Shown piece after piece: positions 24,442 to 50,951 of a DNA stretch of 64,000 nt. Positions within the stretch are counted from its first letter, which is position 1. Every line of letters starts with the position of its first letter. A model generated the notes under the pieces. It searched no databases and was not told the DNA's origin. It saw nothing but the letters and a program-made list of their open reading frames with translations. This DNA comes from Mucispirillum schaedleri. GTDB taxonomy: Bacteria > Chrysiogenota > Deferribacteres > Deferribacterales > Mucispirillaceae. A program made the translations under genes and the position numbers. Location of the stretch: contig CASEIN010000045.1 of assembly GCA_949287985.1 (NCBI GenBank), forward strand, positions 1 to 64,000, in the 5' to 3' direction.

Positions 24442-24481
24442 ATCCACCTTAAGTATAAATAATACCATTTTAGGAGCAAAA

Positions 24482-27076: not shown

Positions 27077-27091
27077 AAGGCAGGTAGTTAC

Positions 27092-29345: not shown

Positions 29346-29381
29346 TATTTCAGGGATTACTTATTTAAGCCCTGAAATATT
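29344..29381. terminator. Bidirectional terminator shared by convergent genes
   Basis: A perfect 12-base stem, AATATTTCAGGG (29344-29355) with CCCTGAAATATT (29370-29381), has a 14-base loop. It begins inside the stop codon of the upstream plus-strand gene and includes the last codons of larC on the minus strand, so one hairpin serves both transcripts. Confidence 0.7.
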
Positions 29382-30507: not shown

Positions 30508-31148
30508 TATTTTTTAACCATTTTTTTATAAGCTGGGCAGTATGATATAATTTTACATTCACTGCATTTTGGTTTTTTTGCTTCACAAAAATATCTGCCA
30601 AAAAGCACAAGCTGATGGGAAAGCTCTGTCCAGCGTTCTTTTGGAAAAATCTTCATTAAATCCTGCTCTATTTTTTCAGGGTCAGAATTTTTTGTAAGCC
30701 CATATCTGTTTGTAATTCTTTTTACATGGGTATCTACAACCATACCGGGAACTTGAAAGGCATTTCCAAGCACTACATTTGCTGTTTTCCTGCCTACACC
30801 CGGTAGTTTTACAAGTTCTTCCATATTATCTGGCACTTGACCTTCATGGTCCTTAACTAAAGCATATGCCATACTTTTTATATTTTTAGCTTTATTTTTA
30901 TAAAACCCTGTAGAATGGATTAATGCTTCTATTTTTTCTATAGGAGCTTCACTCATACTTTTTGCATCAGGATAAGCTGCAAATAAAGCAGGTGTTACTT
31001 TATTCACCTGCTTATCTGTGCATTGAGCTGAAAGTATAGTGGCAACTAATAACTGAAATGGGTTATTATATATAAGCTCACATCTTGCTTCAGGGAAAAG
31101 CTCCTTTAAATAGTCCATAAAAGGAACTAAGTCTTTTTTACCACCCAT
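30507..31148 (-). CDS. nth: Endonuclease III
   Basis: 213 residues. The helix-hairpin-helix LPGVGRKTANVVLGNAF contains the catalytic Lys, and the catalytic Asp is in VDTHVKRI. The [4Fe-4S] motif C-x6-C-x2-C-x5-C is present at the C-terminus (CEAKKPKCSECKIISYC). It removes oxidised pyrimidines. It starts 3 bases after the ubiD-family gene and is coupled to larC. Confidence 0.97.
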   Translation of the reverse strand: MGGKKDLVPFMDYLKELFPEARCELIYNNPFQLLVATILSAQCTDKQVNKVTPALFAAYPDAKSMSEAPIEKIEALIHSTGFYKNKAKNIKSMAYALVKDHEGQVPDNMEELVKLPGVGRKTANVVLGNAFQVPGMVVDTHVKRITNRYGLTKNSDPEKIEQDLMKIFPKERWTELSHQLVLFGRYFCEAKKPKCSECKIISYCPAYKKMVKK

Positions 31149-31151
31149 ATA

Positions 31152-32600: not shown

Positions 32601-32627
32601 ATATCACCATCAAATTTATTTCATAGT

Positions 32628-32656
32628 AGGATAAATAATTTTAAAGAAATATACAA
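32628..32656 (-). promoter_or_regulatory. Candidate promoter of the ubiD-nth-larC run
   Basis: Minus-strand TTGTAT (32651-32656) and TATCCT (32628-32633) are 17 bases apart, 27 bases ahead of the start at 32600. Confidence 0.4.
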
Positions 32657-32700
32657 GAGTTTTATATAATTAAAATACATATTTATTATTATGTAACTTA

Positions 32701-32729
32701 TTGTATGTAGACTATATTATATTTATTAT
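32701..32729 (+). promoter_or_regulatory. Promoter and possible controller site of the C-R genes
   Basis: TTGTAT (32701-32706) and TATTAT (32724-32729) have 17-base spacing. This places transcription start about 8 bases before the ATG at 32744, with no Shine-Dalgarno sequence between, so the transcript would be nearly leaderless as in many C-regulated restriction genes. GTAGACT at 32707-32713 recalls the GACT core of C-boxes, but no clean second half is seen. Confidence 0.35.
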
Positions 32730-32743
32730 TATATTATCTATCT

Positions 32744-32959
32744 ATGGATATTTTGTTAATTTTTGCTAAAAATGTAAAAAAATATAGATTAGAAAAAGGA
32801 TTATCTCAAGAAAAGTTAGGTTTTTTGTGTAATTTACATAGAACATATATAAGTGATATTGAAACATGTAAACGCAGTATTTCTTTAAAAAATATTGAAC
32901 GTATTGCTGTTGCTCTCGAAATACCCCCTTTTAAGTTATTTATTAACAATGAGGAATAA
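32744..32959 (+). CDS. Restriction-modification controller (C) protein, XRE-type HTH
   Basis: 71 residues, the standard C-protein size. The helix-turn-helix covers about residues 9-62: KNVKKYRLEKGLSQEKLGF, then HRTYISDIETCKRSISLKNI and RIAVALEIPPFKLF. C proteins time expression of the endonuclease after entry into a new host. The stop is immediately followed by the endonuclease ATG, with GAGGA at its end serving as the ribosome site. Confidence 0.88.
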   Translation: MDILLIFAKNVKKYRLEKGLSQEKLGFLCNLHRTYISDIETCKRSISLKNIERIAVALEIPPFKLFINNEE

Positions 32960-33766
32960 ATGCTAATTAGTTATGAAGATTTTAATAATAAATTAAAAAC
33001 TAAATTAAGTGATAATATTATATTGTATTATGATTTACTTGTTAAAATTATTAACAATCCATATCGATTTATTGGTAATTTTAGAGTAACCAATACAAAG
33101 ACAAAATTAGTACAATATGTTACACAAAGTCGTGAAATCTTATTTGGATATTTTATGGAAGATATAATTTATGAATACTTATCACTAATGGGTTATACTC
33201 ACATGGATAAATATATCGGTCAGAGTTCTGAAAATAAACCTTTAAATGCTGATCAATTATTTAGAGCTAATGATACTATATATCTCATTGAACAAAAAAT
33301 ACGTGATGATCATGATAGTTCAAAAAAACGTGGTCAATTTAACAATTTCAAGGAAAAGATAAGTTTACTGACCAATAAATATCCTCATAATCAAATTATC
33401 TCTATTATGTGGTTCATTGATGATAATTTTAATAAAAATAAAAACTTTTATAAACATGAAATTAGTACTTTAACTTTTGATAATGTATTCATAAAATATG
33501 GAAAAGAATTATTTGAGGATACACTTCATCGTATAGATGTTTGGGATGAACTATACAGCCATTTGGAGACTAATTATCATGAACGTTCTCATGAAGTTTT
33601 ACAAATTCCTGATTTAGATACAAGTAATGAATTTTTAGAAGTTTTGAGAAAATTAAAAGATAATGAAAAACAATTATATAAAAAACTTACTTCGTCTAAC
33701 AAAAAAGAATATATTGAATTAAGAAGCAGACTTTTTCCTAATGGAACTAATTTTAGGCGAATATAA
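32960..33766 (+). CDS. Type II restriction endonuclease (PD-(D/E)xK-like), HinfI-type system
   Basis: 268 residues. A likely active site is Asp98 with Glu111-Gln-Lys113 (NADQLFRANDTIYLIEQK), followed by a conserved-looking RDDHDSSKKRGQF. The identity rests mainly on context: controller gene upstream, convergent cognate methyltransferase 3 bases downstream. By that partner it should cut GANTC. Its base composition is AT-rich, and codons such as CGT/CGA are more frequent than in the neighbours, fitting transfer. Confidence 0.8.
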   Translation: MLISYEDFNNKLKTKLSDNIILYYDLLVKIINNPYRFIGNFRVTNTKTKLVQYVTQSREILFGYFMEDIIYEYLSLMGYTHMDKYIGQSSENKPLNADQLFRANDTIYLIEQKIRDDHDSSKKRGQFNNFKEKISLLTNKYPHNQIISIMWFIDDNFNKNKNFYKHEISTLTFDNVFIKYGKELFEDTLHRIDVWDELYSHLETNYHERSHEVLQIPDLDTSNEFLEVLRKLKDNEKQLYKKLTSSNKKEYIELRSRLFPNGTNFRRI

Positions 33767-33769
33767 TAA

Positions 33770-34882
33770 CTATAATGTCTGTAACGATTTTCTATATTCT
33801 TCACGAATATTTGATATAGCTACAAGTTTATTATTTCTTTTTACATACCATACATCAAATCCATTTAATCTGTCAGCTTTAGAATTTTTTACAATAGCAG
33901 CACAAGTGTGCATATCTAATATTTGTCCATTATAGTTTAGTTTTCCATTAGCACATAATCTGGCTTCTTCTTTTCCATTTTTTAAATAAAACATTTCTCC
34001 TAGTATAAAATATTTTTTTAGAATCATTTCCTCCATAGATACCTTTGCAGGCTTATTATCATATGCAGCATTTGCAATAGAAGAATCCATATATACTGTA
34101 TTCTTTATCCTTTCTAACCCATACTGACAATATTTACTATCTTGTTCTATCATAATGTAATTTCGACCTAATTTTTTAGCAGCAACAGCAGTTGTCATAG
34201 TTCCTCCGAATGGGTCCAATATTATATCTTCTTTATTAGATGATATTGCTATAATTCTTTCTAATAATTCTAATGGTTTTTGGGTACTGTGTAATTTATT
34301 GCCGTTTATATCTTTCAATCTCTCATTTCCAGAACAAACAGGGAATCTCCATATTGAGCCCATCTGCTTTCTAATACCAGATAAATACTCTATTTCATTA
34401 ATACTATCACGATTTAACTCTTTTGCAGTTTTATAATGAAAAGTATATTTTGAGTTTTTACTTTTAACTGCCCATATTAGTGTTTCATGGGCATTATTTA
34501 ATCTTGTTCCTTTAAAGTTTGGAGTAGGGTTTTTTTTATGCCATATAACATCATTTATTATCCAATAACCAATCTTTAACATTAATGCACCGATAGTATA
34601 TATGCACTGCATACTACCAATTACCCATATTGATCCATTTGGTTTTAAAATTCTATGACATTCTTTTAACCATTTATTTGTAAAAATTTCATAATCTTCT
34701 AATGTATTAAATTGATCCCAATCATCACTGCATCCATCATAATCAATACCATTATTTCGTTTTAATACACCATCTACTCTCATCCAGTATGGTGGATCTG
34801 CAAAAACTAGATCAATACTATTATCTCTTATTTTTTTTAATTCTTCCAATGAATTACCATTTATTATAACATTTTTTTCCAT
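33770..34882 (-). CDS. DNA adenine methyltransferase, HinfI/CcrM type (predicted GANTC)
   Basis: 370 residues of a beta-class N6-adenine methyltransferase. The catalytic DPPY (residues 29-32) comes before the SAM motif DPFGGTMTTAVAAKKLG, and GSIWVIGSMQCIYTIG, NPTPNFKGTRLNNAHETLIW and HSTQKPLELLERII follow the M.HinfI/CcrM pattern. Its C-terminal 100 residues match the extra domain typical of this group. The FGGTMTT reading replaces the commoner FxGTGTT. It protects against the adjacent endonuclease and converges on it. Confidence 0.92.
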   Translation of the reverse strand: MEKNVIINGNSLEELKKIRDNSIDLVFADPPYWMRVDGVLKRNNGIDYDGCSDDWDQFNTLEDYEIFTNKWLKECHRILKPNGSIWVIGSMQCIYTIGALMLKIGYWIINDVIWHKKNPTPNFKGTRLNNAHETLIWAVKSKNSKYTFHYKTAKELNRDSINEIEYLSGIRKQMGSIWRFPVCSGNERLKDINGNKLHSTQKPLELLERIIAISSNKEDIILDPFGGTMTTAVAAKKLGRNYIMIEQDSKYCQYGLERIKNTVYMDSSIANAAYDNKPAKVSMEEMILKKYFILGEMFYLKNGKEEARLCANGKLNYNGQILDMHTCAAIVKNSKADRLNGFDVWYVKRNNKLVAISNIREEYRKSLQTL

Positions 34883-34939
34883 AAAATTTTACCTAAGCTA
34901 TTATAATGTTTTTTTAGTATTTTGACAATATAATAAATA

Positions 34940-34993
34940 AAAAAGGGCTGAAATAGTAAATTCTAAAAAGGGCTGAAATCTTCTTCAGCCCTT
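34940..34993 (-). terminator. Terminator of the decarboxylase operon, with its distal arm duplicated
   Basis: AAGGGCTGAA (34968-34977) pairs with TTCAGCCCTT (34984-34993); on the minus strand a T5 run follows. The distal arm plus T run (15 bases, 34965-34979) occurs again identically at 34940-34954, so the proximal arm can pair with either copy. It lies 24 bases after the 35017 stop. Confidence 0.75.
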
Positions 34994-35016
34994 ATACTGT
35001 ATCATATGCTTAATAA

Positions 35017-36147
35017 TTAACCTGCATATTTTGAAATAAACACACCTGCTGCAACGGCAGAACCAATAACCCCTGCTACGTTTGGTGCCATAGCGTGCAT
35101 AATTAAAAAGTTTGATGGGTCTTCTTTTGCACCCTCTATTTGACAAACTCTGGCTGATAGTGGCACCGCAGATACACCTGCTGCACCAATAATAGGGTTG
35201 ATTTTATTTTTAGTAAATAAATTCATAAGTTTTGCAAAAAGAACGCCTGATGCAGTTGCCACACAGAAAGCCGCAGCACCTAAACCAAATATTTTAAGTG
35301 ATTCTGGTGTTAAGAATTTTTCTGCCTGAGTGGAAGCACCAACTGTTAAACCAAGTATAATAACTACTGTATCAATAATAACAGTTCTTGCTGTTTTTGC
35401 AAGACGTTCTGTTACACCAGATTCTCTTAATAAGTTACCTAATGCAAGCATACCTACTAATATTAATGCACCCGGGTCAAGCATTGAAACTATGATAAAT
35501 GTAAATATAGGGAATAACACCCTCATTCTTTTTGATACTGGTTTGGAAGGTGCCATTTTTATCATACGTTCTTTTTTAGTAGTTAAAAGCCTGATAACTG
35601 GTGGCTGTAATACTGGTACTAAAGCCATGTAAGAATAACCTGCTAATGTAATAACCGGCAAATAATCTTTTGCAAGCTTTGATGCCACAAATATAGATGT
35701 AGGACCATCAGCACCACCAATAATACCAATAGCTGCTGCCTCTTTTAAAGTGAAGCCTAAAAATAAACTTCCTAAGAAAGTAAGGAATACACCAATTTGA
35801 GCAGCTGCTCCTAAAAGCATAAGACGTGGTTGAGAAAGCATGGCAGAAAAGTCTGTCATAGCACCAATACCTAAAAATACAAGTGGTGGATAAATTCCAA
35901 GCTCAACACCTTTATATAAATAACCTAATACACTGTTATGGTCATGTATGCCCATTTCAAGCATTGGGTCTGCTGGAATATTACCAACTATTATACCAAA
36001 ACCAATTGGTACAAGTAAAAGTGGTTCATACTGTTTTGCAATAGCAAGATACAGGAAAATACCGCCAACAATAAGCATAATAACATGTTTATACGTAAGC
36101 AAACCGCCTAGAGCACCTGTATCCATAAAATTTATTAATATATCCAT
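35017..36147 (-). CDS. Na+-transporting decarboxylase beta subunit
   Basis: 376 residues, strongly hydrophobic with about nine to eleven spans. It has the family signature IGIIGGADGPTSIFVASKLA and the C-terminal NPIIGAAGVSAVPLSARVCQ and NFLIMHAMAPNVAGVIGSAV. The beta subunit decarboxylates carboxybiotin and pumps Na+ outward. It is last in a four-gene operon; GGAGG precedes the ATG. Confidence 0.95.
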   Translation of the reverse strand: MDILINFMDTGALGGLLTYKHVIMLIVGGIFLYLAIAKQYEPLLLVPIGFGIIVGNIPADPMLEMGIHDHNSVLGYLYKGVELGIYPPLVFLGIGAMTDFSAMLSQPRLMLLGAAAQIGVFLTFLGSLFLGFTLKEAAAIGIIGGADGPTSIFVASKLAKDYLPVITLAGYSYMALVPVLQPPVIRLLTTKKERMIKMAPSKPVSKRMRVLFPIFTFIIVSMLDPGALILVGMLALGNLLRESGVTERLAKTARTVIIDTVVIILGLTVGASTQAEKFLTPESLKIFGLGAAAFCVATASGVLFAKLMNLFTKNKINPIIGAAGVSAVPLSARVCQIEGAKEDPSNFLIMHAMAPNVAGVIGSAVAAGVFISKYAG

Positions 36148-36172
36148 TATAATGCCTCCGCAAAAAAATGGT

Positions 36173-36601
36173 TTACTGGAATTCTACAAGCACTTGGCTT
36201 TCTCTTACAGTATCACCTGCTGCAACATTTATAGATTTAATAGTGCCATCTACTGGAGAATTAATAGATGTTTGCATTTTCATTGCTTCTAATATTAATA
36301 TTTCCTGACCAACTTTTACAGCATCGCCTGCTTTTGCTTTTACTTCTACAATTGTACCACCAACTGGGGAAATAATTGTTTTACCGCCTGCATTAGCTGC
36401 TGCTGCGGCTGCTGCAGCTGCTGCTGCTCTGCTTGGTGGTGGAAGTATGCCGTCATTACTTTGGTTTGTAGGCATAGGTTGAGATAGTACAAATTTTGAT
36501 ACTGGTGGTATACCACTTAAAGTGCCATAACCTTCTTCACTGTCTAATAATTCAACTTCTACTTCATATGCAACGCCATGTAAAGTAATTTTCATTTTCA
36601 T
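36173..36601 (-). CDS. Biotin carrier subunit of the Na+-pumping decarboxylase
   Basis: 142 residues. The N-terminal ~55 residues are followed by a flexible linker with Pro and a run of 11 Ala residues. The biotinyl domain has the Lys acceptor in LEAMKMQTSI. The carrier moves carboxybiotin between the alpha and beta subunits. The Ala run is coded mostly by GCA/GCT and is prone to length changes. AGGAG precedes the first ATG. Confidence 0.94.
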   Translation of the reverse strand: MKMKITLHGVAYEVEVELLDSEEGYGTLSGIPPVSKFVLSQPMPTNQSNDGILPPPSRAAAAAAAAAAANAGGKTIISPVGGTIVEVKAKAGDAVKVGQEILILEAMKMQTSINSPVDGTIKSINVAAGDTVRESQVLVEFQ

Positions 36602-36622
36602 AATATATGCTCCTAAATCTTT

Positions 36623-37087
36623 TTAATATTTTTTACTGTGTGATGATTGTAATGCACTTCTTGCCTGCATTGCCCAGTTACCACCCTGTTTTGCTTTTGC
36701 TGGAAGTACTCTTACACGCCTAACCTTTGCCTTATTATGAGTATAAGCTGCAACAGCTGCACTAATAAGAACTAAAGTAGTATTATCAATATTTTGGTCG
36801 TTTAATGAATCATGAGAAATATCATCAGCACCTTTTGTACCTAATGTATTCCTCACTGATTTTAAAAACTTTTCAATAGCTGGTTCTGCTGCTTTGATAA
36901 TATTAATAAATATTATCATAATAGCAAGTACTGCAAATACAACACCAGTACCAGTGACAGTAACTTTTAAGCCTTCACCTATGGTATCATGCCAATCTCT
37001 ACTGTTATTAACAGTGTGAGTAGTAGCATAAGTCTGTGTATTTTCAGCATTGTTTTGAGCCAGCTGTATATACATATTTTCAGCCAT
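36623..37087 (-). CDS. Na+-transporting decarboxylase gamma/delta-type subunit (OadG-like)
   Basis: 154 residues with a single membrane span at about residues 40-66 (TVTGTGVVFAVLAIMIIFIN) and a basic, flexible C-terminal tail ending GGNWAMQARSALQS. This is the OadG/MmdD plan: it anchors and assembles the complex. The segment AAVAAYTHNKAKV resembles the conserved middle of these subunits. Confidence 0.85.
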   Translation of the reverse strand: MAENMYIQLAQNNAENTQTYATTHTVNNSRDWHDTIGEGLKVTVTGTGVVFAVLAIMIIFINIIKAAEPAIEKFLKSVRNTLGTKGADDISHDSLNDQNIDNTTLVLISAAVAAYTHNKAKVRRVRVLPAKAKQGGNWAMQARSALQSSHSKKY

Positions 37088-37096
37088 TGCAAACTC

Positions 37097-38647
37097 CTAT
37101 AACGGAATAAGTCCGTGTTTTTTATAAGGTCTAGTTTCGCGTTTAGAAGCAAACATTTCTAAAGATGCTGCTAAATAGCTTCTTGTATCTGCTGGTAATA
37201 TTACATTGTGAATATAGCCTCTTTTTGCTGCCACATAAGGGTTTGCAAAAAGCTCTCTGTATTCTTCAAGTCTTTTTTTAGTTTCAGCAGCTTTATCTTC
37301 TGCATTTTTAATTTCTTTACCATAAAGCAGACTAACAGCACCTTCTGCACCCATAACTGCAATTTCTGCAGTAGGCCATGCAGCAACTCTATCTGCTCCA
37401 AGCTCTTTAGAACACATACCAATATATGCACCACCATAAGCTTTCCTTAATATTATTGTAAATTTAGGAACAGTTGCTGATGCATAAGCATATAAAAGTT
37501 TTGCACCGTGTCTAATAATACCGCCATATTCCTGGTCAACTCCCGGCATAAATCCCGGAACATCAACTAAAGTAACTAAAGGTATATTAAATGCGTTACA
37601 GAAGCGGATAAAACGAGCAGCTTTATCTGATGAGTCAATATCTAATACACCTGCTTTAAATGCTGGCTGGTTAGCTATCACACCAATAGTTCTGCCGTTT
37701 AATCTACCAAAACCAACTATAATATTTTTAGCAAAGCCTTCTTGAACTTCTAAAAAGTCTGCATTATCTACAATTCTCCAAATGATTTCATGCATATCAT
37801 AAGGAATTTTTGGGTCTTCTGGAACTATAAAATTAAATGATTCATCAGGACCAATAACGCTGTTTCTTGATGATTCTATAATTGGTGCTTCTTCTGAATT
37901 ATTAGATGGAAGGAAAGATAAAAGCCTTCTAGCAAGCCCTAAAGCTTCAGGACCTGATTTTGCAACAAAATGTACAACACCAGAATAGTGAGCTTGAGCG
38001 TCAACACCACCAAGCTGTTCAAGAGAAACTTCCTCACCTGTAACTTCTTTAATGATTTTAGGGCCAGTAATATACATTTGCCCTTCACGCTGAACTTGAA
38101 TAATAAAGTCAGTTAAAGCAGGAGAATAAGCTGCACCACCTGCACAAGGACCAGCAATAATACTGATTTGTGGTACAACACCAGATAATAATACGTTACG
38201 ATAGAAAATACCGCCGTAACCAGATAAGGCACTAACACCTTCTTGAACTCTGGCACCGCCTGAGTCATTTATAAATATAAAAGGTGAACCAGTTTTTAAA
38301 GCTGCATCCATAAGTTCTTGGGCTTTTCTAGCACCTGCTTCACCCATAGTACCTGCATTAACAGTAAAATCCTGACTTGCTACAAATACAGACCTGCCAT
38401 CTACAAGCCCCATGCCTGTAACCATACCGTCTGCTGGCAAATCTTTCTTATCCATACCAAAGTCTGTACAACGGTGTTGTACCATTAAAAAATTCTCTTG
38501 GAAGGTATCTTCATCCAAAAGCATGCCTATACGCTCTCTGGCTGTATATTTACCTTGAGAGTGCATTTTCTCAATCTGAGCATCTCCACCACCCTTATAT
38601 AGTCGGGCACGAAGCTCAATAAGCTCTTTTACTTTGTCTTTGCTCAT
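37097..38647 (-). CDS. mmdA: Carboxyltransferase alpha subunit, probable methylmalonyl-CoA decarboxylase
   Basis: 516 residues of the acyl-CoA carboxyltransferase fold. The oxyanion-hole segments GGARVQEGVSALSGYGGIF and GAYIGMCSKELGADRV are present, and GVVPQISIIAGPCAGGAAYSPAL matches propionyl/methylmalonyl-CoA enzymes. This is unlike the HMGL-type OadA of oxaloacetate decarboxylase. With the biotin, gamma and beta subunits downstream it would form a Na+ pump that decarboxylates methylmalonyl-CoA; glutaconyl-CoA is an alternative substrate. Confidence 0.88.
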   Translation of the reverse strand: MSKDKVKELIELRARLYKGGGDAQIEKMHSQGKYTARERIGMLLDEDTFQENFLMVQHRCTDFGMDKKDLPADGMVTGMGLVDGRSVFVASQDFTVNAGTMGEAGARKAQELMDAALKTGSPFIFINDSGGARVQEGVSALSGYGGIFYRNVLLSGVVPQISIIAGPCAGGAAYSPALTDFIIQVQREGQMYITGPKIIKEVTGEEVSLEQLGGVDAQAHYSGVVHFVAKSGPEALGLARRLLSFLPSNNSEEAPIIESSRNSVIGPDESFNFIVPEDPKIPYDMHEIIWRIVDNADFLEVQEGFAKNIIVGFGRLNGRTIGVIANQPAFKAGVLDIDSSDKAARFIRFCNAFNIPLVTLVDVPGFMPGVDQEYGGIIRHGAKLLYAYASATVPKFTIILRKAYGGAYIGMCSKELGADRVAAWPTAEIAVMGAEGAVSLLYGKEIKNAEDKAAETKKRLEEYRELFANPYVAAKRGYIHNVILPADTRSYLAASLEMFASKRETRPYKKHGLIPL

Positions 38648-38686
38648 TTAAACCTCACCTTATTAGAATAGATTTTATCCAAAGCT

Positions 38687-38715
38687 ATATTATACTTAAT
38701 TTATATAGTTTTCAA
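38687..38715 (-). promoter_or_regulatory. Promoter of the Na+-decarboxylase operon
   Basis: Minus-strand TTGAAA (38710-38715) and TAATAT (38687-38692) have 17-base spacing, 39 bases before the start at 38647. An overlapping TATAAT is 15 bases from the same -35 box. Confidence 0.5.
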
Positions 38716-38731
38716 GTATTATATAAAAAAA

Positions 38732-40300
38732 TTATCTTTTTCTTTTAGAACGCCTTCTTACAGAATTTTTGCTGCTGTCAGCATTGCCTGCATTATCTTG
38801 AAATCTTTTTCTTCCTTTTATGTTTTTAAATTTGTTTAAAATTTTGCTTAAATCTTTTGGCAGCACAACATAATCTTCATCAGGATTAATATAATTTAAC
38901 TTATGTTTTGTATAGCTTTCTATTTTAGGAATAAGATATGCATCTTCTTCTGTGGCAAATATGACAGATACACCCTTTTCCCCTGCTCTGCCAGTTCTGC
39001 CTATTCTATGCACATAATCTTCTGGATCATCTGGCAGTGTATAGTTAAATACATGGCTTATACTATCAACATGTATGCCTCTTGCTGCCACATCTGTAGC
39101 ACATAAAACCCTAATGCTTCCACTTCTTAATTCTTCCAGAGTTTTTATTCTTCTTGATTGTGTTACATCACCAGATAAAAGCCCAGCAGATATACCGCAG
39201 GCTTTAAACATATCTGTAAGGCGGGCAACTTCATTTCTTCTATTGCCAAAAACAATTACTCTACTTAAATTATCATTTGTAATCATATTATACATTATGG
39301 CAAACTTTTCTTTAATCGATGCAATATAAGCAATTTGTTCTATATTCTCAGAAGTTATTTCTTTTGATTCAACTTCAATACTAACAGGCTCTTTTGTCCA
39401 TTTTGAAGCAAGTTTTAAAATATCGTCATTTAATGTGGCACTAAAAAGCATGGTCTGCCTTTGATTTTTAGAAGGAAGTGATGATATTATTTTTTTCATA
39501 TCAGGAATAAAGCCCATATCAAGCATTCTATCGGCTTCGTCAATAACTAAAATTTCAACCTTTGATAAGTCTAATATTTCCTGTTCTTTATAGTCAAGCA
39601 GCCTGCCTGGTGTTGCAACTAAAATGTCTATTGGTTTATTTTCAATCTGCCTTTTTTGTTTTTCATAATTAATGCCACCAAAAACAGACTGAATACTCAT
39701 ATTGCAGTATCTGCCAATATTTCTAGCATCTTTTTCTATCTGCATAACAAGTTCCCTTGTTGGTGCCATAATTAAAGCTCGTGGAGTACCCTTTTTTCTA
39801 TTTTCATCAACATTATCAGAAAGCCTTTTAAATAAAGTGATTAAAAAAGCAGCAGTTTTACCAGTTCCTGTTTGAGCCTTTCCTGAAACATCTTTACCAT
39901 TTAAAGATTCTGGCAAAATCATTTTTTGTATAGGAGTGCAGTATTTATATTCACATTCATAAATACCCCTCATAAGCCTATCAGGCAGCCCTAAATCGTG
40001 AAAACGGATTTCACCATCACACGCTTCCACTTTAAATTCGTCTACTTTCCAAGAACCAAAATCCACATATTCATCTTCCATATTAATATGTTTTAATTCC
40101 TGTTTTTTGCTTTGTTTTTTTACTTTCTCTGCCTGTTTTTTACTTGATGTTTTTAAAATATTTCTTTCTTTGGTTCTGCTTTCCTTACTATTTATGTTAT
40201 CAGATAAGCCTATTTGATTAGATATTTCTCTGATTATTATTTTATTTTGTGCTGTTTCATTTTTTTTGATAATCTGTTTTATTCGCTCAAGTATAGACAT
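38732..40300 (-). CDS. DEAD-box RNA helicase
   Basis: 522 residues. A Lys-rich N-terminal extension of about 95 residues precedes the core. Core motifs are GLPDRLMRGIYECEYKYCTPIQ (Q motif), AQTGTGKTAAF (I), PTRELVMQ (Ia), VIDEADRMLDMGF (II), SATL (III) and HRIGRTGRAGE (VI). The tail is basic (RRRSKRKR). RhlB/RhlE-type enzymes remodel RNA during decay or ribosome assembly. The exact subfamily is not fixed. Confidence 0.93.
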   Translation of the reverse strand: MSILERIKQIIKKNETAQNKIIIREISNQIGLSDNINSKESRTKERNILKTSSKKQAEKVKKQSKKQELKHINMEDEYVDFGSWKVDEFKVEACDGEIRFHDLGLPDRLMRGIYECEYKYCTPIQKMILPESLNGKDVSGKAQTGTGKTAAFLITLFKRLSDNVDENRKKGTPRALIMAPTRELVMQIEKDARNIGRYCNMSIQSVFGGINYEKQKRQIENKPIDILVATPGRLLDYKEQEILDLSKVEILVIDEADRMLDMGFIPDMKKIISSLPSKNQRQTMLFSATLNDDILKLASKWTKEPVSIEVESKEITSENIEQIAYIASIKEKFAIMYNMITNDNLSRVIVFGNRRNEVARLTDMFKACGISAGLLSGDVTQSRRIKTLEELRSGSIRVLCATDVAARGIHVDSISHVFNYTLPDDPEDYVHRIGRTGRAGEKGVSVIFATEEDAYLIPKIESYTKHKLNYINPDEDYVVLPKDLSKILNKFKNIKGRKRFQDNAGNADSSKNSVRRRSKRKR

Positions 40301-40487
40301 TTTAACCTTCTAGTATAATGTATTTTATCCATTTTAGGATATTAAAATCATAGTAATATATATGAATAAATAATTTTTTGGTAGCAATTTTTTTATTTTT
40401 TATGAAATTTTATTTTGAATTAAAAAATTATACTTTTGTATTAATAACTTAAAAAGTCATATAAAAAAGCAAGGTTTTTGGTTTATA

Positions 40488-40521
40488 AAAAAAGCAGGTA
40501 TAAAATATATACCTGCTTTTA
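40488..40521 (-). terminator. Terminator of the BIG2 lipoprotein gene
   Basis: A 13-base perfect stem, AAAAGCAGGTATA (40490-40502) with TATACCTGCTTTT (40508-40520), loop AAATA, lies 6 bases after the lipoprotein stop with T runs on both sides. It shares the GCAGGT core of two other terminators in the window. Confidence 0.8.
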
Positions 40522-40526
40522 TTTAA

Positions 40527-43043
40527 TTAATTTAATTTTGGCATCAATTCAATATCTTCATATGCATTATCACCGGCTTTAAAAATATACTGAATATCTG
40601 CATCTTTTTTAAGCAAGTTATTCATATTTTGTAATGCCTCAGCTAAAGAGTCTTCAGCTTGCCCATTATTTCTTATTATTTTTGTAACAGGGCTTTTTAT
40701 TTTTGAGTTGCTTTCTGCTGGCACACTTTTTACATATACTTCTTCTTCATTTGTTATAGATGTATAACTGCCGTAATCTAATCCTTTATTTGAACCAGTA
40801 GAATTTACTACGCCTATAAAAATAGATGCAGAAACATCAGCCGTACCCTGCTCCACAACACCAGCAATTCCACCTGCATAGTCTTGAGCTGTAATCTGCC
40901 CAGCAGCATAAGAGCCTTTCACATAAGAACCAGAAGAAAGCACTCCAGCTATACCGCCAGTTGCTGTTATGTAATCTACTGCTTTAGCAGGGTTTGTAAG
41001 ATTAATATTATTTGCTGCTGATGAGATTATTTTACCTTTATTAATACCTGCTATACCGCCAAGCACAGTTCTTGAAGTAGCAAACTTTATAACAAGGCTT
41101 CCTGTATCAACAGTGCAGTTATCAATTACTCCTGTAGACTGCCCAGTAATCAGACCAGCATTAGCAAACAAATCTGCAAATACTTGTTGCAACTCAACTG
41201 CAGCATTATTAATAGATACATTTTTAATAGTACCATTATTTTCACCAGCAACAACACCAGTATAAGTCTCTTTGTGTGTTATATTCAGTGATCTTATAAC
41301 AGGAGTATCAAAAACAACATTCATAATAGTACCGCCAAGCACACTTACAAAACCATAATGGACACTTGGACTGTCATCTACTTTATATTCCCTTATTATA
41401 TGACCATTTCCGTCAAAAGTGCCATCAAAAATTTCACCAGCATGTTCTGTTTCAACACCTGTGAAATCTAAATCTGTCATTAATTTAAATGATTTATTTT
41501 GTATATCATAAAAGCAGAGTGTAAACCCTGTCTTGTTATATATCAAATATACACCATTTTCATCCTGCTCATATCCATGCAGCACTTTTCTTATTGTTTT
41601 AATAGTGTATTCTGCAGTTTTACCACCTGCTGCTGCAGTAATAACAACATTTTCTGCTTCTGCCAAAGCTGTAATAACTGCATCTCCTGTTATAGCATCC
41701 TGCTCTATTGAAACTGCTGTATCATTATTTGATGACCATGTTACTTTATTATCTGTAGCATTAGCTGGGAAAAGCTCTGCTTTAAAAGTCACCTGTCCTT
41801 CAACACCCATTTCATCATAACCTTTAATTTTTATCTCAGATACTGGAATTTCTGTGCCGTATGGTACAAACTCAACATCAATACTTGCACTTGCTGTTTC
41901 CCCACAAGGTTGATTTGATTTATCAACGGCCGTTGCTGTAATAGTTACAGGCCCAGTTTGATTTCCATGTACTACTCTGCCATTAGCATCTGTTAGTGCA
42001 ATTTCCATATTGCTAGATATCCACAGTATATCTTTGCAAGATGCATTTTCTGGAGTAATGGTTGCCTGCAACTGTAATACATCATTAATTCCAAGCGTTG
42101 TTTTTCCACCTACAGTAACATCTTCATAACCTTTAATAGTAACTGATTTTACAGGTATATATACTACTGTCACTTCATAAGATGATGACACCCCACCTGC
42201 TGTTGCAGTAATTACAGCTGTGCCTGGATAAGCACCAGGTTTACTGCTTGCAGAAACTCTGCCAGTGCTGTCAACTTCTGCTACCCATTCATCACTTGAT
42301 TTCCATGTTACTCTGTTAAATGTAGCATCACTTGGCACAACTTCAGCTTTAAATAAAGCAGAGTTTCCAATAGCTATTTCTTTCACGCCTGTAATTTTTA
42401 CTTCCTGAACTGGTATAACATTAGCATGAGATAAAATTGTAATGTTTTTAGTTGCAGTATGTTTTCCTGCTTTTGCTGTAACAGTAACTTTTCCGCTTTT
42501 ATTTTCACCATTTGCTGTTAAAACGCCATTTTCATCAATAGTTGCAAGAGAAGTATCACTTACCCACCACATAACAGTTTTATTTGTAGCATTCTCTGGC
42601 AAAACTTCTGATGTTAAATGAAGCTGCTCCCCTGCTAACATATCAAACTTTAATTCCTCTACGCCAATATTAATTGAGCTGACAGGAATAAATGGTTCAT
42701 CTGGTGCTTTTACATAAATAGATACAACATCTTTTATATTGCCATAACTTGCTGTAATTTCTACCATACCTTCAGCAACATCTTTGGCACGAATTAAACC
42801 ATTATTATCAATTTCAAGCAAATCTTGATTACTTGTATCCCACATAATATTTAATTCAGGCCTATCTGTCATAAGCTGATATTCTTCACCATAATTTAAG
42901 TATTCTGGTGCATTGATAATACTTATACTCTTTACATCTGTTTGAGCACCACCACTGGAACTAGAACTGGAGCAACCTGACATACATAATACAAAAAATA
43001 TGCATAATGTAATTAGTAGTGATATTTTAGAATAATGGACCAT
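40527..43043 (-). CDS. Surface lipoprotein with five BIG2 Ig-like repeats and GLUG-type repeats
   Basis: 838 residues. A lipoprotein signal ends in MSGC with Cys24 and is followed by a Ser/Gly stretch. Five BIG2-type domains follow (to about residue 490), each with a pattern such as LPENATNKTVMWWVSD or VPSDATFNRVTWKSSD. Residues from about 560 to 760 contain GLUG-like repeats (GGIAGVLSSGSYVKGSYAAG). BIG2/GLUG proteins are cell-surface adhesins or scaffolds. AGGAGG precedes the ATG. The long upstream region holds unusual structure. Confidence 0.88.
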   Translation of the reverse strand: MVHYSKISLLITLCIFFVLCMSGCSSSSSSGGAQTDVKSISIINAPEYLNYGEEYQLMTDRPELNIMWDTSNQDLLEIDNNGLIRAKDVAEGMVEITASYGNIKDVVSIYVKAPDEPFIPVSSINIGVEELKFDMLAGEQLHLTSEVLPENATNKTVMWWVSDTSLATIDENGVLTANGENKSGKVTVTAKAGKHTATKNITILSHANVIPVQEVKITGVKEIAIGNSALFKAEVVPSDATFNRVTWKSSDEWVAEVDSTGRVSASSKPGAYPGTAVITATAGGVSSSYEVTVVYIPVKSVTIKGYEDVTVGGKTTLGINDVLQLQATITPENASCKDILWISSNMEIALTDANGRVVHGNQTGPVTITATAVDKSNQPCGETASASIDVEFVPYGTEIPVSEIKIKGYDEMGVEGQVTFKAELFPANATDNKVTWSSNNDTAVSIEQDAITGDAVITALAEAENVVITAAAGGKTAEYTIKTIRKVLHGYEQDENGVYLIYNKTGFTLCFYDIQNKSFKLMTDLDFTGVETEHAGEIFDGTFDGNGHIIREYKVDDSPSVHYGFVSVLGGTIMNVVFDTPVIRSLNITHKETYTGVVAGENNGTIKNVSINNAAVELQQVFADLFANAGLITGQSTGVIDNCTVDTGSLVIKFATSRTVLGGIAGINKGKIISSAANNINLTNPAKAVDYITATGGIAGVLSSGSYVKGSYAAGQITAQDYAGGIAGVVEQGTADVSASIFIGVVNSTGSNKGLDYGSYTSITNEEEVYVKSVPAESNSKIKSPVTKIIRNNGQAEDSLAEALQNMNNLLKKDADIQYIFKAGDNAYEDIELMPKLN

Positions 43044-43087
43044 AACATCCTCCTAGATTTATAAGATGCAGCTAATATTTTTAAAAA

Positions 43088-43114
43088 TTTATAATAAATG
43101 GTAATTTATGTCAA
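43088..43114 (-). promoter_or_regulatory. Candidate promoter of the BIG2 lipoprotein gene
   Basis: A consensus TTGACA (minus strand, 43109-43114) lies 15 bases from TATAAA (43088-43093) and 17 bases from TAAATT. It sits 45-70 bases ahead of the lipoprotein start. The spacing to the better -10 box is short. Confidence 0.4.
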
Positions 43115-43138
43115 TTTAATTTTAAAGTTAGCCCTAAA

Positions 43139-43174
43139 CGGAACAGACCACCTAAAATTAGGTGGCCTGTTCCG
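43139..43174. repeat. 17-pair inverted repeat (strong hairpin)
   Basis: The arms CGGAACAG-A-CCACCTAA and TTAGGTGG-C-CTGTTCCG pair with one A/C mismatch around a two-base loop. It is much more GC-rich than its surroundings and lies just upstream of the candidate lipoprotein promoter. Neither side has a T tract long enough for a standard terminator. Confidence 0.8.
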
Positions 43175-43176
43175 TC

Positions 43177-43291
43177 TACTTCTTTTATGATACTTGAATA
43201 CTAAATATACTACTACAATACTAAAGTTATACTAATCTACTAAATATACTCACATACTTTAAATACTTAATCTATACTTTATTTATATACT
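43177..43291. repeat. Degenerate TACT tandem array
   Basis: Thirteen TACT tetramers occur in 115 bases, most 8, 9 or 11 bases apart (starts at 43177, 43191, 43199, 43208, 43211, 43219, 43230, 43238, 43247, 43255, 43264, 43275, 43288). The 13-mer TACTAAATATACT occurs exactly at 43199 and 43238. Confidence 0.7.
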
Positions 43292-43545
43292 TTAACTTAC
43301 ATATGCAACCTTCTCTATGACTGTAATATAATCATATTATTTTCATTTGTCAACTAAATATTTTATATTTTTTCAAATTCTTTTGATTTTGCTTATTTTT
43401 TAAGCAATTAAAATTATTTTATTTATATATATCAATAGTTTAAAAAAAATATATTTTTATAGATTTTTACCTTTAAAACGGGTGTTTTTTGCATTATTTT
43501 AAGATAAAAACAGTATTAAAATTGCTAACTATTAACACATGTGCT

Positions 43546-43575
43546 TAAAAAAAAGGCAGAACATTTATCTGCCTT
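43546..43575 (-). terminator. Rho-independent terminator of the HIT gene
   Basis: AAGGCAGA (43553-43560) pairs with TCTGCCTT (43568-43575) with a 7-base loop. On the minus strand a run of T residues follows, about 48 bases after the stop of the HIT gene. Confidence 0.8.
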
Positions 43576-43622
43576 AATAACTCATTTTTACTGTGCTTAA
43601 AAGTTAGGCAATATTTGTTACA

Positions 43623-44039
43623 TTAAAATGACTGCCTAATTTTTTCGCCATCTTTTGCTATTTCTGGTATTTCAACTTTTAACCTAGGTGGGCTGTATTT
43701 ACCAAATTCATCACCTTTATATCGTGGAATAATATGAACATGGGAATGAAATACTTCCTGCCCTGCTGCATTTTCGTTCTGCTGAAATACATATATACCT
43801 TCTGCATTAAATGCTTTTTTTACAGCATTTGATACTTTGCTTATAACATTATAAAAATTTTTACCTACATTTTTTGGAGTATCTAATATATTCCTGCAAT
43901 GATATTTAGGAATAACAAGGGTATGCCCCCTAACTGCTGGATTAATATCCATAAATGCTAAAAACTCATCATCTTCATATACTTTCGTTGATGGTATTTC
44001 TCCATTAATAATTTTGCAAAATATACAATCTTTATCCAT
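43623..44039 (-). CDS. HIT-family nucleotide hydrolase (HinT-like)
   Basis: 138 residues. It starts CIFCKIINGEIPSTKVYEDD and has the histidine triad HSHVHIIPRY. CxxC near the start and a His further on would form a zinc site. HinT-type proteins hydrolyse purine nucleoside phosphoramidates. It is a single-gene unit with its own terminator. Confidence 0.93.
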   Translation of the reverse strand: MDKDCIFCKIINGEIPSTKVYEDDEFLAFMDINPAVRGHTLVIPKYHCRNILDTPKNVGKNFYNVISKVSNAVKKAFNAEGIYVFQQNENAAGQEVFHSHVHIIPRYKGDEFGKYSPPRLKVEIPEIAKDGEKIRQSF

Positions 44040-46305: not shown

Positions 46306-47863
46306 TAACATTACTTTTGATTTAGTAAAAATAATTTCTTCAGAAACAACAGAAGAATTTATAAAACAAATAAATTCAATTCTTCACAAGCATGATATAT
46401 ATGCTTTTCGTATATGGGATGTTCGTGGTAATGTTTGCGAACCATGCCCATATATTCCGTCAGATTTATATGCTACTTTTGATATTTATGAACTTGGATT
46501 TAAAAATGAAGATTTTTCCAGTAATATCAATATAGATATTTCATATTTTGATGTAACTTACCATATTGATGCAGCCATGTTTTTTAGGCATAATAATAGA
46601 GTTACACACGTTATTACTTTTGAACGAACACTGCCTGTAGATGTGGAAGAAAAAATAAAGATGTATGCACCATATTTTGGCAGACGCTCTGTTGAGCTTT
46701 TTTCTAAAGAACGCCAAATGGATTTATATATAGATTATCAGAAAAAAGTAGATTTCGTAAAACGTGCCAGCACTATTTTTATGGCAATAGAGTTACAGGA
46801 AGTTATATCTATGTCATTATCATTTTTTATGGAAGTCTTTTCTGCTGATGCAGTATGTGCTTATTATAACGATGAGTTTTACGGAATAGGACTTGAAGAA
46901 AGTGATTTAGAAGAACAAATTAGTATAAACCAAATCCCACTTTCTATATATTTAAAAAATACTAATGAAACTATCTTTATAGAAAATGATGTTGTATCAC
47001 CTAAATTTAATGTAAAAAATACGTTTTTTATATATGACAAGGTGGCAAATCTCCACTTTGCACTGTTTAATATTATTGTAGATATTGTGCCGGATAAAGA
47101 TTTTTCTTCGCTTGTTTCAAGTATTGTATCCATTGCTACTGAAAATGCCTTAAATCATGAAGCACTTACTAAATTTAAAATAGAAGAAACTGAGATTGCA
47201 TATACTGCTGAAATTTTAAACAAATTTGTGAAAAAAAATATATTTCTTGAAGAAAATCCAAATGTATATGGCATAAGCTATCCTGCACGAAATGCAGGGG
47301 GCGACTTTGTCCATTTATTAAAAATAGGAAATGACTATATTTTCTGTGTGGCAGATGTTTGTGGTAAAGGGTATTCTGCTGCAGTGCTTACTGTTGTTTT
47401 AAGTGTATTTATGTCTAAATTTAATTCATCTGATAATCTTACAAAGCAGGTTACAGATATTAATGATTTTTTAATATCTAAAAATTTTAGTGACAGGTTT
47501 ATTACAAGCTTTTTTGGAATATATAGAAGTGATATTTCTGAGCTTGAATATATATCATGTGGCCATGACCCTGCAGCTGTTTTAAGTGGTAACCATATTG
47601 AATACTTAACATCAGAATATATGCCTATGGGTATAATGCCAGAAGATTATAAATCTAAAAAATTAAAAATAGATAAAAACAGCCTTATATTTATATATAC
47701 TGATGGTTTAATAGAGTATTCATCATTAGATGACCTTTTATGCCTTGTTAAAGCACTATCTTATAAAGAATCAAAGGAAATAGCTGAAAATTTATATACA
47801 GAGCTGGTAACAGATACTACACTTCAAAGGGATGATTTTACATGTCTTATAATGAAAGTATAA
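46292..47863 (+). CDS. PP2C-type (SpoIIE/RsbU-like) serine phosphatase with sensor region
   Basis: 523 residues. An N-terminal region of unknown fold is followed by a GAF-like middle (about residues 155-300) and a SpoIIE phosphatase domain. The metal-binding motifs are ARNAGGDFVHLL, FCVADVCGKGYSAA, IYTDGLIEYS and RDDFTCLI. Such enzymes usually dephosphorylate anti-sigma-factor antagonists. No STAS or anti-sigma gene is next to it. It overlaps ubiE by 22 bases. Confidence 0.9.
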   Translation: MEKNNNITFDLVKIISSETTEEFIKQINSILHKHDIYAFRIWDVRGNVCEPCPYIPSDLYATFDIYELGFKNEDFSSNINIDISYFDVTYHIDAAMFFRHNNRVTHVITFERTLPVDVEEKIKMYAPYFGRRSVELFSKERQMDLYIDYQKKVDFVKRASTIFMAIELQEVISMSLSFFMEVFSADAVCAYYNDEFYGIGLEESDLEEQISINQIPLSIYLKNTNETIFIENDVVSPKFNVKNTFFIYDKVANLHFALFNIIVDIVPDKDFSSLVSSIVSIATENALNHEALTKFKIEETEIAYTAEILNKFVKKNIFLEENPNVYGISYPARNAGGDFVHLLKIGNDYIFCVADVCGKGYSAAVLTVVLSVFMSKFNSSDNLTKQVTDINDFLISKNFSDRFITSFFGIYRSDISELEYISCGHDPAAVLSGNHIEYLTSEYMPMGIMPEDYKSKKLKIDKNSLIFIYTDGLIEYSSLDDLLCLVKALSYKESKEIAENLYTELVTDTTLQRDDFTCLIMKV

Positions 47864-48543
47864 AAGAACAAGAACAGTCAAAAAAAATACAAGAAATGTT
47901 TAATAATATTGCAGATAAATATGATTTTTTAAATGGAGTATTAAGTTTTGCTCTTGATGCTAACTGGCGAAAAATTGCTATTCGATTATCTGATATAAAA
48001 AAAGACCATAAGGTCCTTGATTTAGCCTGCGGCACTGGTGATATGATAGCAGAAATCCATAAGCAGCACCCAGATGCATTTATTTATGGTGCAGATTTTA
48101 GTGTAAATATGCTGCATATTAGCCAGAAAAAACTTAATAATGTTCCATTTACTGCAGCAGATGCTCATAACCTGCCATTTAAGGATAATTCTTTTGACAG
48201 GCTTACGATGGCATTTGGTTTTAGAAATGTTACAGATAAAGCAAGGGGGCTTGCTGAATTATATAGAGTTATAAAATCAGGTGGTAAAGTTTGTATTTTA
48301 GAACTTACAAAACCAGAAAATAAAGTTACCAGCTTTTTTTACAGACTTTATTTTATGCATATATTGCCATTAATTGGTGGTATTTTTTCATCTCGTAAAG
48401 CTTATAAGTATTTACCTGATTCAGTATACCATTTTCCAAAAAGAAAGGAATACAGGCAAATGATAGAAAATGCTGGCTTTAGAAATATACATTTTAAAAC
48501 ATTAGTATTCGGTGCTGTAACTATTGTAATTATGGAAAAATAG
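47842..48543 (+). CDS. ubiE: Demethylmenaquinone methyltransferase
   Basis: 233 residues. The SAM motif VLDLACGTGDMIAEI and the family signatures NNIADKYDFLNGVLSFALDA and LTMAFGFRNVTDKARGLAEL are clear. It makes menaquinone from demethylmenaquinone. It overlaps the phosphatase gene, so a respiration gene is coupled to the signalling operon. It converges on the restriction-type gene 4 bases on. Confidence 0.93.
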   Translation: MSYNESIKEQEQSKKIQEMFNNIADKYDFLNGVLSFALDANWRKIAIRLSDIKKDHKVLDLACGTGDMIAEIHKQHPDAFIYGADFSVNMLHISQKKLNNVPFTAADAHNLPFKDNSFDRLTMAFGFRNVTDKARGLAELYRVIKSGGKVCILELTKPENKVTSFFYRLYFMHILPLIGGIFSSRKAYKYLPDSVYHFPKRKEYRQMIENAGFRNIHFKTLVFGAVTIVIMEK

Positions 48544-48547
48544 CAGC

Positions 48548-49320
48548 CTATGATTTTAATACTAAATTTATTATGCTAATAACATCACTTTTATGTGCTT
48601 TGCTTAACAAAGCAAATATCTTGAAAGTTCCTAGTATGAAATCTTTATGAGTTTTATCTAATAGTAGCACTGCTTTTTCATTTTGTTCTGCACAGCGTCC
48701 AATTAGTTCCCTTTTTTCTCCTTTTAATTTTGTTACAGGAAAACATACATAAAGCATTGGCTGCAAACCTACTGCTTTTTGTTTTTCTTTAATTACAATT
48801 TCAACCAACACCTCAAAAGAAGAAAATTTATAAAAAAGTAAAGGATATTGAACTATACTTTTTTCAAAGTTTATTCCTTCAAGTATATACTCTACAGGGC
48901 TGCACCTTGTAACAGATAGATCTATGTTTTGTTCAATAAGATTTTTGTTATCTATATTATTGATATATTCTAGTAGTTCCCTTAATTCTTTATTACTTAT
49001 AATCTCCATTTTATAAAAATAGTATAGGTATTCACTTAATTCATATAGTGCTTTTTCTTTGCCATTTGAACCTGTAAATATTTTCTTTTGCAGTGTAGAT
49101 AATTCAAGTTTACTTTTATCTTTATTTTTAGTTACTACATCATACCCAATTTGCCATTCTATATAGCATTTATTATTAAATTCCTGCTGTCTTGTTGCAA
49201 CAGGATCTCCATATCCGTACCATACATCTCTACTTTTTACTCTTATTTTTCCTTGTGTATTTGTTAATGGTATTGCAATTTCAATATTTTTTTATTTTTA
49301 TCTACTTTATTAATTTTCAT
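48548..49320 (-). pseudogene. Probable restriction endonuclease partner, split by a one-base slip in an A7 tract
   Basis: From ATG 49320, overlapping the methyltransferase stop as ATGA, the frame reads MKINKVDKNKKILKLQYH then stops at TAA. One extra A in the A7 run (plus-strand T7 at 49287-49293) would join it to a long open frame that runs through NIEIAIPLTNTQGKIRVK and VWYGYGDPVATRQQ to the stop at 48548, about 257 residues. No alternative start exists in that frame before 49009. EIVIKEKQKA is a possible but unproven nuclease motif. The locus position suggests the endonuclease of the adjacent methyltransferase. Confidence 0.7.
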
Positions 49321-50432
49321 GATATTTCACCAAATAATTCTAAAAAATATTTATCTATATTATTGCTTTTTATATTGTTTTCTGAAAGTTCCACAAATTC
49401 ATTTTCTATTGATTTAAATTTTTGGTAGTTTATAAAAACATCTAGATTTCCAAAATAATATGGCAGTTTATCTATGTATTTTTTAAATACATCTATATAA
49501 CAATATAAAGAGTATTTATTATCAGTAATATATACCGTATTCGAACAATCTTCTTGAATAAAAGTTCTAGACCTTTTTAATGCATTTATATCACGCATGG
49601 TATAAAATTTAGCCACTACATTTGATTTGTGTATTTTATTTTTATTTGGATACTTATCTACATACTTACTTATAAAATCAAAATCATTAAGGGAAAACTT
49701 ATGATTTTCTATTGTTTTAAATTTATAATTTTTTATATATTCATAATCCATACCTTTTTCACTTCGTTTATATAAGCCAATAATTATTGGAAAAAATGAC
49801 AATGATGTGGAACAAAATATTTGTGAGCTTATGATAAGTGCATCTTCTAATACATAATTATCTTTAAATCTACCTAAACTATTAAAATTGGTCTTTTTAA
49901 TTAAATAAGATAATGGGTGTAAAACACATATATAATCGGCTTTTAACTCATTATATGAAAGCAGAAAACTTATTCCTAAATCTCTGTGTTCTACTTTTTC
50001 ATTTATATTATATATATTATATGTTTTTAGATAATTTTGAACAATAGAAGTTCTGTCATTATAAGGTGGATTTCCAATAATAAAAAGCTCATCACTATCA
50101 CTTATATTATATTCATTCCTAGCTATTTTTTCTAAAGAATTTAATACTAATAAGTCAACTTTTTTATCACTAAATCTATTTCTTGCATATTTAACAGCCT
50201 CATTATCAATATCTGCACCAATAATTTGCTTAAATTCATATTTTAAATCTAGTAAATTACCACTTCCACATGATGTATCAAGTAATACATACTTATTTAA
50301 AGTTTCAATATTAATATTATTATGTATCAGTTTTTCTATATATCCAATTAAGCTTTGTGGTGTATAATAACTTCCATAATTAACTTTTTCTTTTTTTGAA
50401 AGATGTTTTGCCTGTTCCAACATATGCTCCAT
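49317..50432 (-). CDS. Gamma-class N6-adenine DNA methyltransferase (TaqI/Eco57I-like)
   Basis: 371 residues. The N-terminal YYTPQSLIGYIEKLI motif, SAM motif LLDTSCGSGNLL, acidic IIGADID and catalytic NPPY (FIIGNPPYND) come in gamma-class order. The C-terminal 150 residues would recognise the target, which cannot be read from sequence. It is shorter than M.TaqI. The start could also be the ATG three codons later, which has GGAG nearby. It is followed by the slipped gene. Confidence 0.88.
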   Translation of the reverse strand: MEHMLEQAKHLSKKEKVNYGSYYTPQSLIGYIEKLIHNNINIETLNKYVLLDTSCGSGNLLDLKYEFKQIIGADIDNEAVKYARNRFSDKKVDLLVLNSLEKIARNEYNISDSDELFIIGNPPYNDRTSIVQNYLKTYNIYNINEKVEHRDLGISFLLSYNELKADYICVLHPLSYLIKKTNFNSLGRFKDNYVLEDALIISSQIFCSTSLSFFPIIIGLYKRSEKGMDYEYIKNYKFKTIENHKFSLNDFDFISKYVDKYPNKNKIHKSNVVAKFYTMRDINALKRSRTFIQEDCSNTVYITDNKYSLYCYIDVFKKYIDKLPYYFGNLDVFINYQKFKSIENEFVELSENNIKSNNIDKYFLELFGEIS

Positions 50433-50435
50433 CTA

Positions 50436-50951
50436 TTAATTTCCAACAGCCTTTGTTTTTAGAAGCTTGTTTTTATCATACACCATAAATGATGATTTAT
50501 TTTTATCATAAATAATTTCTTTACCTGTTAAGATTTGCTCTTTACTATCGTATATTTTTATATTATCTCTGCTGTATTCATACACATAATTATTATGCTT
50601 AATAGATACATATTCATTATTTTTATCAATATAGCCACGTGCATATATTTTATCATCATATCTGCCAAAAATAAGCTTATCATCTTGAGTAATCACAAAA
50701 TTACTGCCTGCCTGAAATGGTGAAACTTTATCATTATAATCAATATGTATTAATTCAGATGCATATGGAGTAGTTTTTAATGATTCAAAGTATATTCTTA
50801 TAGCACCTTTTTTACCTGGAATAGTTATACTTTTAGAATTATCTGCACGCAGACCACCTATCATCTTTGCTACTATTTCAGTTGATTCTTGTGCATATAT
50901 ATTCATTGCTGCAAAAGTTAATAAAATAGTAAGGAATAACCTAATTTTCAT
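50436..50951 (-). CDS. Secreted hypothetical protein
   Basis: 171 residues with a clear signal peptide (MKIRLFLTILLTFAAMNIYA). The mature part has repeated Tyr/Asp/Lys-rich beta-strand units (FGRYDDKIYARGYIDKN, SFMVYDKNKLLKTK). No domain is recognised. It ends 3 bases before the methyltransferase start, although the functional link is unclear. Confidence 0.65.
   Translation of the reverse strand: MKIRLFLTILLTFAAMNIYAQESTEIVAKMIGGLRADNSKSITIPGKKGAIRIYFESLKTTPYASELIHIDYNDKVSPFQAGSNFVITQDDKLIFGRYDDKIYARGYIDKNNEYVSIKHNNYVYEYSRDNIKIYDSKEQILTGKEIIYDKNKSSFMVYDKNKLLKTKAVGN

Follow-up and report, generated by a model that had tools for sequence, protein, structure and literature searches.

A PabI-family restriction-modification locus with a probably recently lost restriction gene and a retained methyltransferase in Mucispirillum schaedleri

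What does a restriction-type gene represent when it loses its reading frame at a run of seven A residues and stands next to an intact methyltransferase gene: a switch, an assembly artefact or an enzyme that has recently been lost? We addressed this question for a gene pair (R, restriction gene; M, methyltransferase gene) in a stretch of 64,000 nucleotides of M. schaedleri, hereafter the window (Table 1). On the minus strand, the R start codon ATG (49320-49318) overlaps the M stop codon TGA (49319-49317) as ATGA. Both this coupling and the frame loss at the A7 run had been described in an earlier inspection of the bare letters (the sequence-only reading), and both were borne out. Read directly, the zero frame of R has 18 codons and reaches a stop shortly past the A7 run. 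The shifted frame continues for 246 codons without a stop and terminates at 48548; the two other frames of this stretch contain 58 stops in 492 codons. Since 246 stop-free codons would arise by chance with a probability of ~4e-14 in such an AT-rich stretch, the interruption is real in the given sequence, and homology to Pfam PF09522 and R.CcoLI settles, at the level of sequence comparison, that this is a broken gene. The earlier statement that no other start exists held for the part of the shifted frame upstream of 49009, which has no ATG, GTG or TTG, but not beyond it, as a 153-aa C-terminal ORF could start at 49009. Internal restart as a route to a working enzyme was rejected, because this start lies past the catalytic Tyr49 and Lys79 and the 153-aa fragment would thus be missing the N-terminal half of its active site. 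No second copy of R was found in the genome. Searches of Pfam and NCBIfam gave no match for the 171-aa protein on the right flank.

Table 1. Positions of the restriction-modification pair, its reading frames and its flanking genes in the window.
Feature	Position	Strand	Description
R gene, frame-interrupted	48548..49320	-	R.PabI-family restriction DNA glycosylase; Pfam, PDB match, fold model
Methyltransferase (M)	49317..50432	-	371 aa, intact; cognate adenine DNA methyltransferase, M.PabI type
Zero-frame product	49264..49320	-	18-residue peptide to TAA; read directly
A7 run, point of frame loss	49287..49293	-	T7 on + strand; A8 in sister species G005
Shifted frame	48548..49288	-	246 codons; all catalytic and base-recognition residues
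C-terminal ORF	48548..49009	-	153 aa; sole conventional restart
ubiE/menG menaquinone methyltransferase	47842..48543	+	Left flank, convergent with R; NCBIfam TIGR01934 2e-77
Putative secreted protein, family unknown	50436..50951	-	171 aa; right flank, upstream of M

Restriction enzymes that act by excising a base are rare, and the PabI family is their well-studied group. R.PabI restriction DNA glycosylases remove the adenine from GTAC, and the strand is then broken by AP lyase action. We found that the shifted frame of R matched the Pfam family RE_R_Pab1 (PF09522; 1.7e-38, 131.8 bits with a cut-off of 25) and, across its whole length, R.CcoLI (PDB 7cfa; 1.6e-46). Fold prediction of the frame-restored protein, which had been put forward as a check, was carried out with AlphaFold2 using 34 family members and gave a model with a mean pLDDT of 92.8. 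The predicted fold agreed with that of R.CcoLI (Foldseek against 7cfa, 8.9e-24, TM 0.85/0.90), and all 14 significant PDB matches of the model were R.CcoLI or R.PabI chains, which have the HALFPIPE fold. The catalytic triad of R (Tyr49, His232 and Asp235) corresponds to Tyr68, His211 and Asp214 of R.PabI and is invariant in the 34 sequences. The AP-lyase lysine, Lys79, corresponds to Lys71 of R.CcoLI and is accompanied by the mesophile insertion, and Asp50 and Asn75 match Asp53 and Asn67 of R.CcoLI. Every invariant family residue in the alignment of 34 sequences is present in R; the residues kept in invariant or nearly invariant columns are Lys14, Arg16, Glu44, Gln46, Tyr49, Asp50, Lys79, Gln170, Met178, His232 and Asp235. 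R also keeps Gln176 and Tyr180 among the residues described for R.CcoLI, the enzyme for which the roles of the triad, AP-lyase and base-reading residues are documented (PMC7806768). Because R is a relative of R.CcoLI and R.PabI in which both residues and fold are kept, its sequence and predicted model place it among the restriction DNA glycosylases and not among phosphodiesterases or ordinary nucleases. The initial label of endonuclease needs correction, as the activity expected is that of an R.PabI-family restriction DNA glycosylase. The R of this genome is a family member by descent, broken and predicted to yield no translatable full-length enzyme. We infer that GTAC is the target of the pair; the base-reading residues are kept in R, and GTAC is avoided in the genome. 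The M protein carries the motifs DxSCGSGN and NPPY and matched PADLOC MTase_II (4.2e-84), and in nearly all related loci a homologue of M immediately precedes R.

Several known systems can be compared with this pair. R.CcoLI and M.CcoLI of Campylobacter coli are similar in that R has a full-length homologue (~41% identity in Campylobacter plasmids), that the Tyr-His-Asp triad, the AP-lyase Lys and the beta-sheet insertion are common to both, and that M adjoins R. However, the Campylobacter copies found were intact and located on conjugative plasmids, whereas the Mucispirillum copy is chromosomal and frame-broken. R.HpyAXII and M.HpyAXII (HpPabI) of Helicobacter pylori share the family and the target, the avoidance of GTAC in the genome, and the frequent inactivation of R by frameshift or nonsense mutation with M kept (PMC10273834); they differ in belonging to another phylum, and the Mucispirillum lesion consists of one contraction of an A-run, the allele of the sister species being intact. 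R.PabI of Pyrococcus abyssi (PDB 2dvy, 3waz) has the same HALFPIPE fold and catalytic residues, but it is archaeal, shows ~27% identity by structure alignment and has no insertion to hold the AP-lyase lysine in position (PMC7806768). PabI has already been recorded in M. schaedleri (PMC4615327). The complete genome G006 probably holds the homologue of that report, which comes from the same genus as the present gene and differs in having an intact open frame and no A-run.

We compared the locus in ten Mucispirillum genomes, one per species, G000 being the present genome. The M-R pair was found beside ubiE/menG in four of the ten (G000, G004, G005 and G006), the left neighbour in G004, G005 and G006 being the same ubiE. 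G001 has a contig-edge fragment of M only, and the five other genomes are without the pair; in G007 there is an empty site between the gene for the 171-aa protein and ubiE, where the pair sits elsewhere. The locus is best read as a type II system of the PabI family inherited at one site in Mucispirillum. The R proteins of the genus formed one clade with full support, although where this clade belongs relative to Campylobacterota and the other groups was not resolved in the tree. An earlier paper proposed horizontal transfer from Epsilonproteobacteria (PMC4615327). A search for relatives of R on phages or viral contigs found none. In a four-locus DNA alignment, the sister species G005 has an R protein 95% identical to that of this genome, with A8 and an open frame of 257 aa, which agrees with the prior claim that one extra A restores about 257 residues. 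The R of G006 is 74% identical, its frame is open and no A-run is present at the tract position. In G004, which also has no tract there, R is broken by an internal nonsense codon together with 7 bases inserted close to its 3' end. Since G005 is open with A8 and G006 is open without an A-run, the ancestral gene was in frame. M is intact in all four loci carrying the pair, and the expectation that the methyltransferase had been kept here was correct. In ~59 kb aligned with G005, the frame change in R is the only uncompensated one inside an ORF body; all others either compensate each other in pairs or fall at the ends of ORFs, and a frame event at 58350 is upstream of a start common to both species. 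Decay of R beyond the A7 was not seen. The dN/dS of R against G005 was ~0.2, and the terminal branch of R was 0.011 in this genome versus 0.039 in the intact sister. Two substitutions in the open R of G005 (Gly138Val, Glu142Gly), suspected of being missense damage, were set aside, neither column being invariant. Besides, the 3' half of R (window positions 48500-49000) is 98% identical to G005 and the adjoining ubiE 86-89%, with synonymous divergence of 0.10 for R, 0.24 for M and 0.78 for ubiE; this contrast points to recent recombination there.

GTAC counts were compared with a maximal-order Markov expectation. The observed/expected ratio was 0.25 in this genome, 0.24 in G005 and 0.05 in G006, all of which carry the locus. 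Among Mucispirillum genomes without the R-M pair it was 0.73 in the close relative G007, 0.50 in G002 and 0.34 in G003; G009 gave 0.55 (20 kb only). The family outgroups showed 0.85 and 0.89 (two of similar GC) and 0.58 (a GC-rich one). GTAC depletion roughly tracks possession of the locus, at 0.05-0.25 with it and 0.34-0.73 in the same genus without it. As avoidance is equal in the broken genome and its intact sister, the enzyme appears to have been active until recently, and site turnover relative to G005 was balanced (8 gains, 6 losses). The simplest reading is a long-standing R activity whose loss would be too recent to leave a trace in GTAC. This clock is slow, because G003 and G002, which have no R-M pair, are still depleted, and GTAC avoidance dates the loss of R only loosely. 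The window contains 33 GTAC sites, 28 within 24-44 kb and 5 elsewhere versus ~84 expected there. In the stretch 24000-44000, GTAC is at ~0.6 of expectation, and positions 40.2-43.0 kb are 86-89% identical to G002 and G003 with flanks at ~75%; this suggests that sequence was recently exchanged with GTAC-tolerant species. Also, one GTAC site lies inside R itself at 49217, where G004, G005 and G006 have GTAT, and the R of G005 has its own GTAC at the position matching 49257.

These data make it probable that this is a PabI-family R-M locus in which R was recently turned off by a change from A8 to A7 while M remained. A one-base contraction of the A8 run just inside R would have abolished the frame. 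An intact R would flip out the adenine of unmethylated GTAC, excise it and use its active-site lysine to nick the resulting abasic site, and M would protect the host by methylating the GTAC adenine. In this genome, the ribosome would start R at the ATGA overlap and halt after 18 codons, so that the cell would methylate GTAC but no longer restrict; we infer from the reading frame that R activity is absent in the A7 allele. By analogy with what was proposed for H. pylori, the loss may be a simple mutation, favoured because the enzyme would be toxic. That R was recently lost and M kept, one of the two possibilities first raised, is well supported by the intact sister allele, the lack of added lesions in R, a GTAC avoidance that has not relaxed and the known pattern of the family. 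In H. pylori isolates, R.HpyAXII is functional in ~20% and M.HpyAXII in ~90%, and the decay of the former by frameshift and nonsense mutations was attributed to toxicity (PMC10273834). We found that H. muridarum has R broken by a nonsense codon and H. equorum has R frameshifted near a T7 run, each with M open.

The other possibility first raised, reversible phase variation in which A7/A8 slippage toggles the restriction glycosylase under constant methylation, appears unlikely. It would fit the A7 here versus A8 in G005 in an otherwise conserved context, the absence of further decay in R, a tract near the gene start as in many contingency genes, and the apparent use of poly-G/C switching in the genus. 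However, the ORFs of the window hold 78 A/T runs of at least 7, and a count over 378 kb of the genome gave 444 exact A/T 7-mers and 92 8-mers. Runs of 9 or more are depleted, with 9 exact 9-mers versus 39 expected under a simple model in the same 378 kb. The abundance of 7-mers and 8-mers together with the shortage of 9-mers suggests that lengths of 7-8 are a tolerated background and that those of at least 9 are avoided. Both A7 and A8 are below the poly-A/T cut-off of 10 or more applied to Campylobacter (PMC6321876), mutS1 and mutL are present above curated cut-offs, and G006 and G004 have no tract at that position. Recent loss is favoured because the tract is of ordinary length and below the published cut-off, in a genome that avoids 9+ runs and has mutS1 and mutL, and the term phase-variable was not upheld on the same grounds. 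At least as unlikely is a slow reversible A7/A8 switch of a toxic base-excising enzyme, with an R-off majority, an R-on minority and constant GTAC methylation; if true, it would explain both the undamaged remainder of R and the persistent GTAC avoidance.

Poly-G/C runs in Mucispirillum have a bimodal length distribution, with none of 7 and then 8-10 in the three genomes counted, and are often inside ORFs. They were found in G006 (L077:10453, L138:608, L079:9139 and 13810, L145:2641, L146:11543), G003 (L089:4943), G007 (L128:10253 and 11321) and G000 (L115:3258). The ORFs continue in the same or a shifted frame and, as named by eye, encode a Tat-signal oxidoreductase, an ATP-grasp-like enzyme, a sulfatase-like enzyme, an MBOAT-like acyltransferase, a glycosyltransferase, Ig-like lipoproteins and a histidine kinase. 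They look like an undescribed set of candidate phase-variable genes, and their bimodal run lengths look like the pattern of a true contingency class, unlike the A/T runs.

That R is really intact, the A7 reflecting an error in the assembly or consensus or else a minority haplotype of this draft and possibly metagenome-assembled genome, is quite improbable. Although the difference is a single base in a homopolymer and the draft comprises 79 contigs, ~78 other A/T runs of at least 7 in the ORFs of the window, 18 of them at least 8, show no frame break relative to G005, which indicates that homopolymer errors are not general. In addition, loss of R is a common fate in the PabI family (PMC10273834). 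Leaky expression, in which -1 ribosomal or transcriptional slippage on A7 would provide a little full-length enzyme, is highly unlikely. A-runs are slippery, the shift needed is indeed -1, and a small amount would be appropriate for a toxic enzyme, but the phasing AAT AAA AAA ATA prevents clean tandem re-pairing and relatives encode R in one plain frame. A recoding signal 3' of the A7 was rejected, as folding downstream of the tract was no better than chance (z -1.07).

The outcome of M kept and R lost was already known from H. pylori HpyAXII. What is new here is a case of PabI decay outside Campylobacterota with an intact sister allele from which the direction of change follows, two independent R lesions in one genus (G000 and G004), and GTAC avoidance in Mucispirillum; neither decay nor GTAC avoidance in this genus was found in PMC4615327. 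In H. pylori, the repeated loss of PabI has been taken to indicate toxicity, and the same asymmetry is now seen in a second phylum, Deferribacterota. As graded GTAC depletion roughly tracks the locus, Mucispirillum offers a second natural series for the rates at which restriction avoidance builds up and fades.

GTAC was not the only tetranucleotide affected. GATC is depleted more than GTAC in nearly all of the Mucispirillum genomes sampled (0.00-0.14 of expectation versus 0.50-0.71 in family outgroups), and G006 has almost no ACGT or TCGA; other restriction systems probably shaped these genomes. A second type II R-M pair is present in the window at 32960-34882, where convergent genes encode a 268-aa REase_II and a 370-aa N6_N4 methylase with a RAMA-like tail. 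It lies in a stretch (32668-35015) that does not align with G005.
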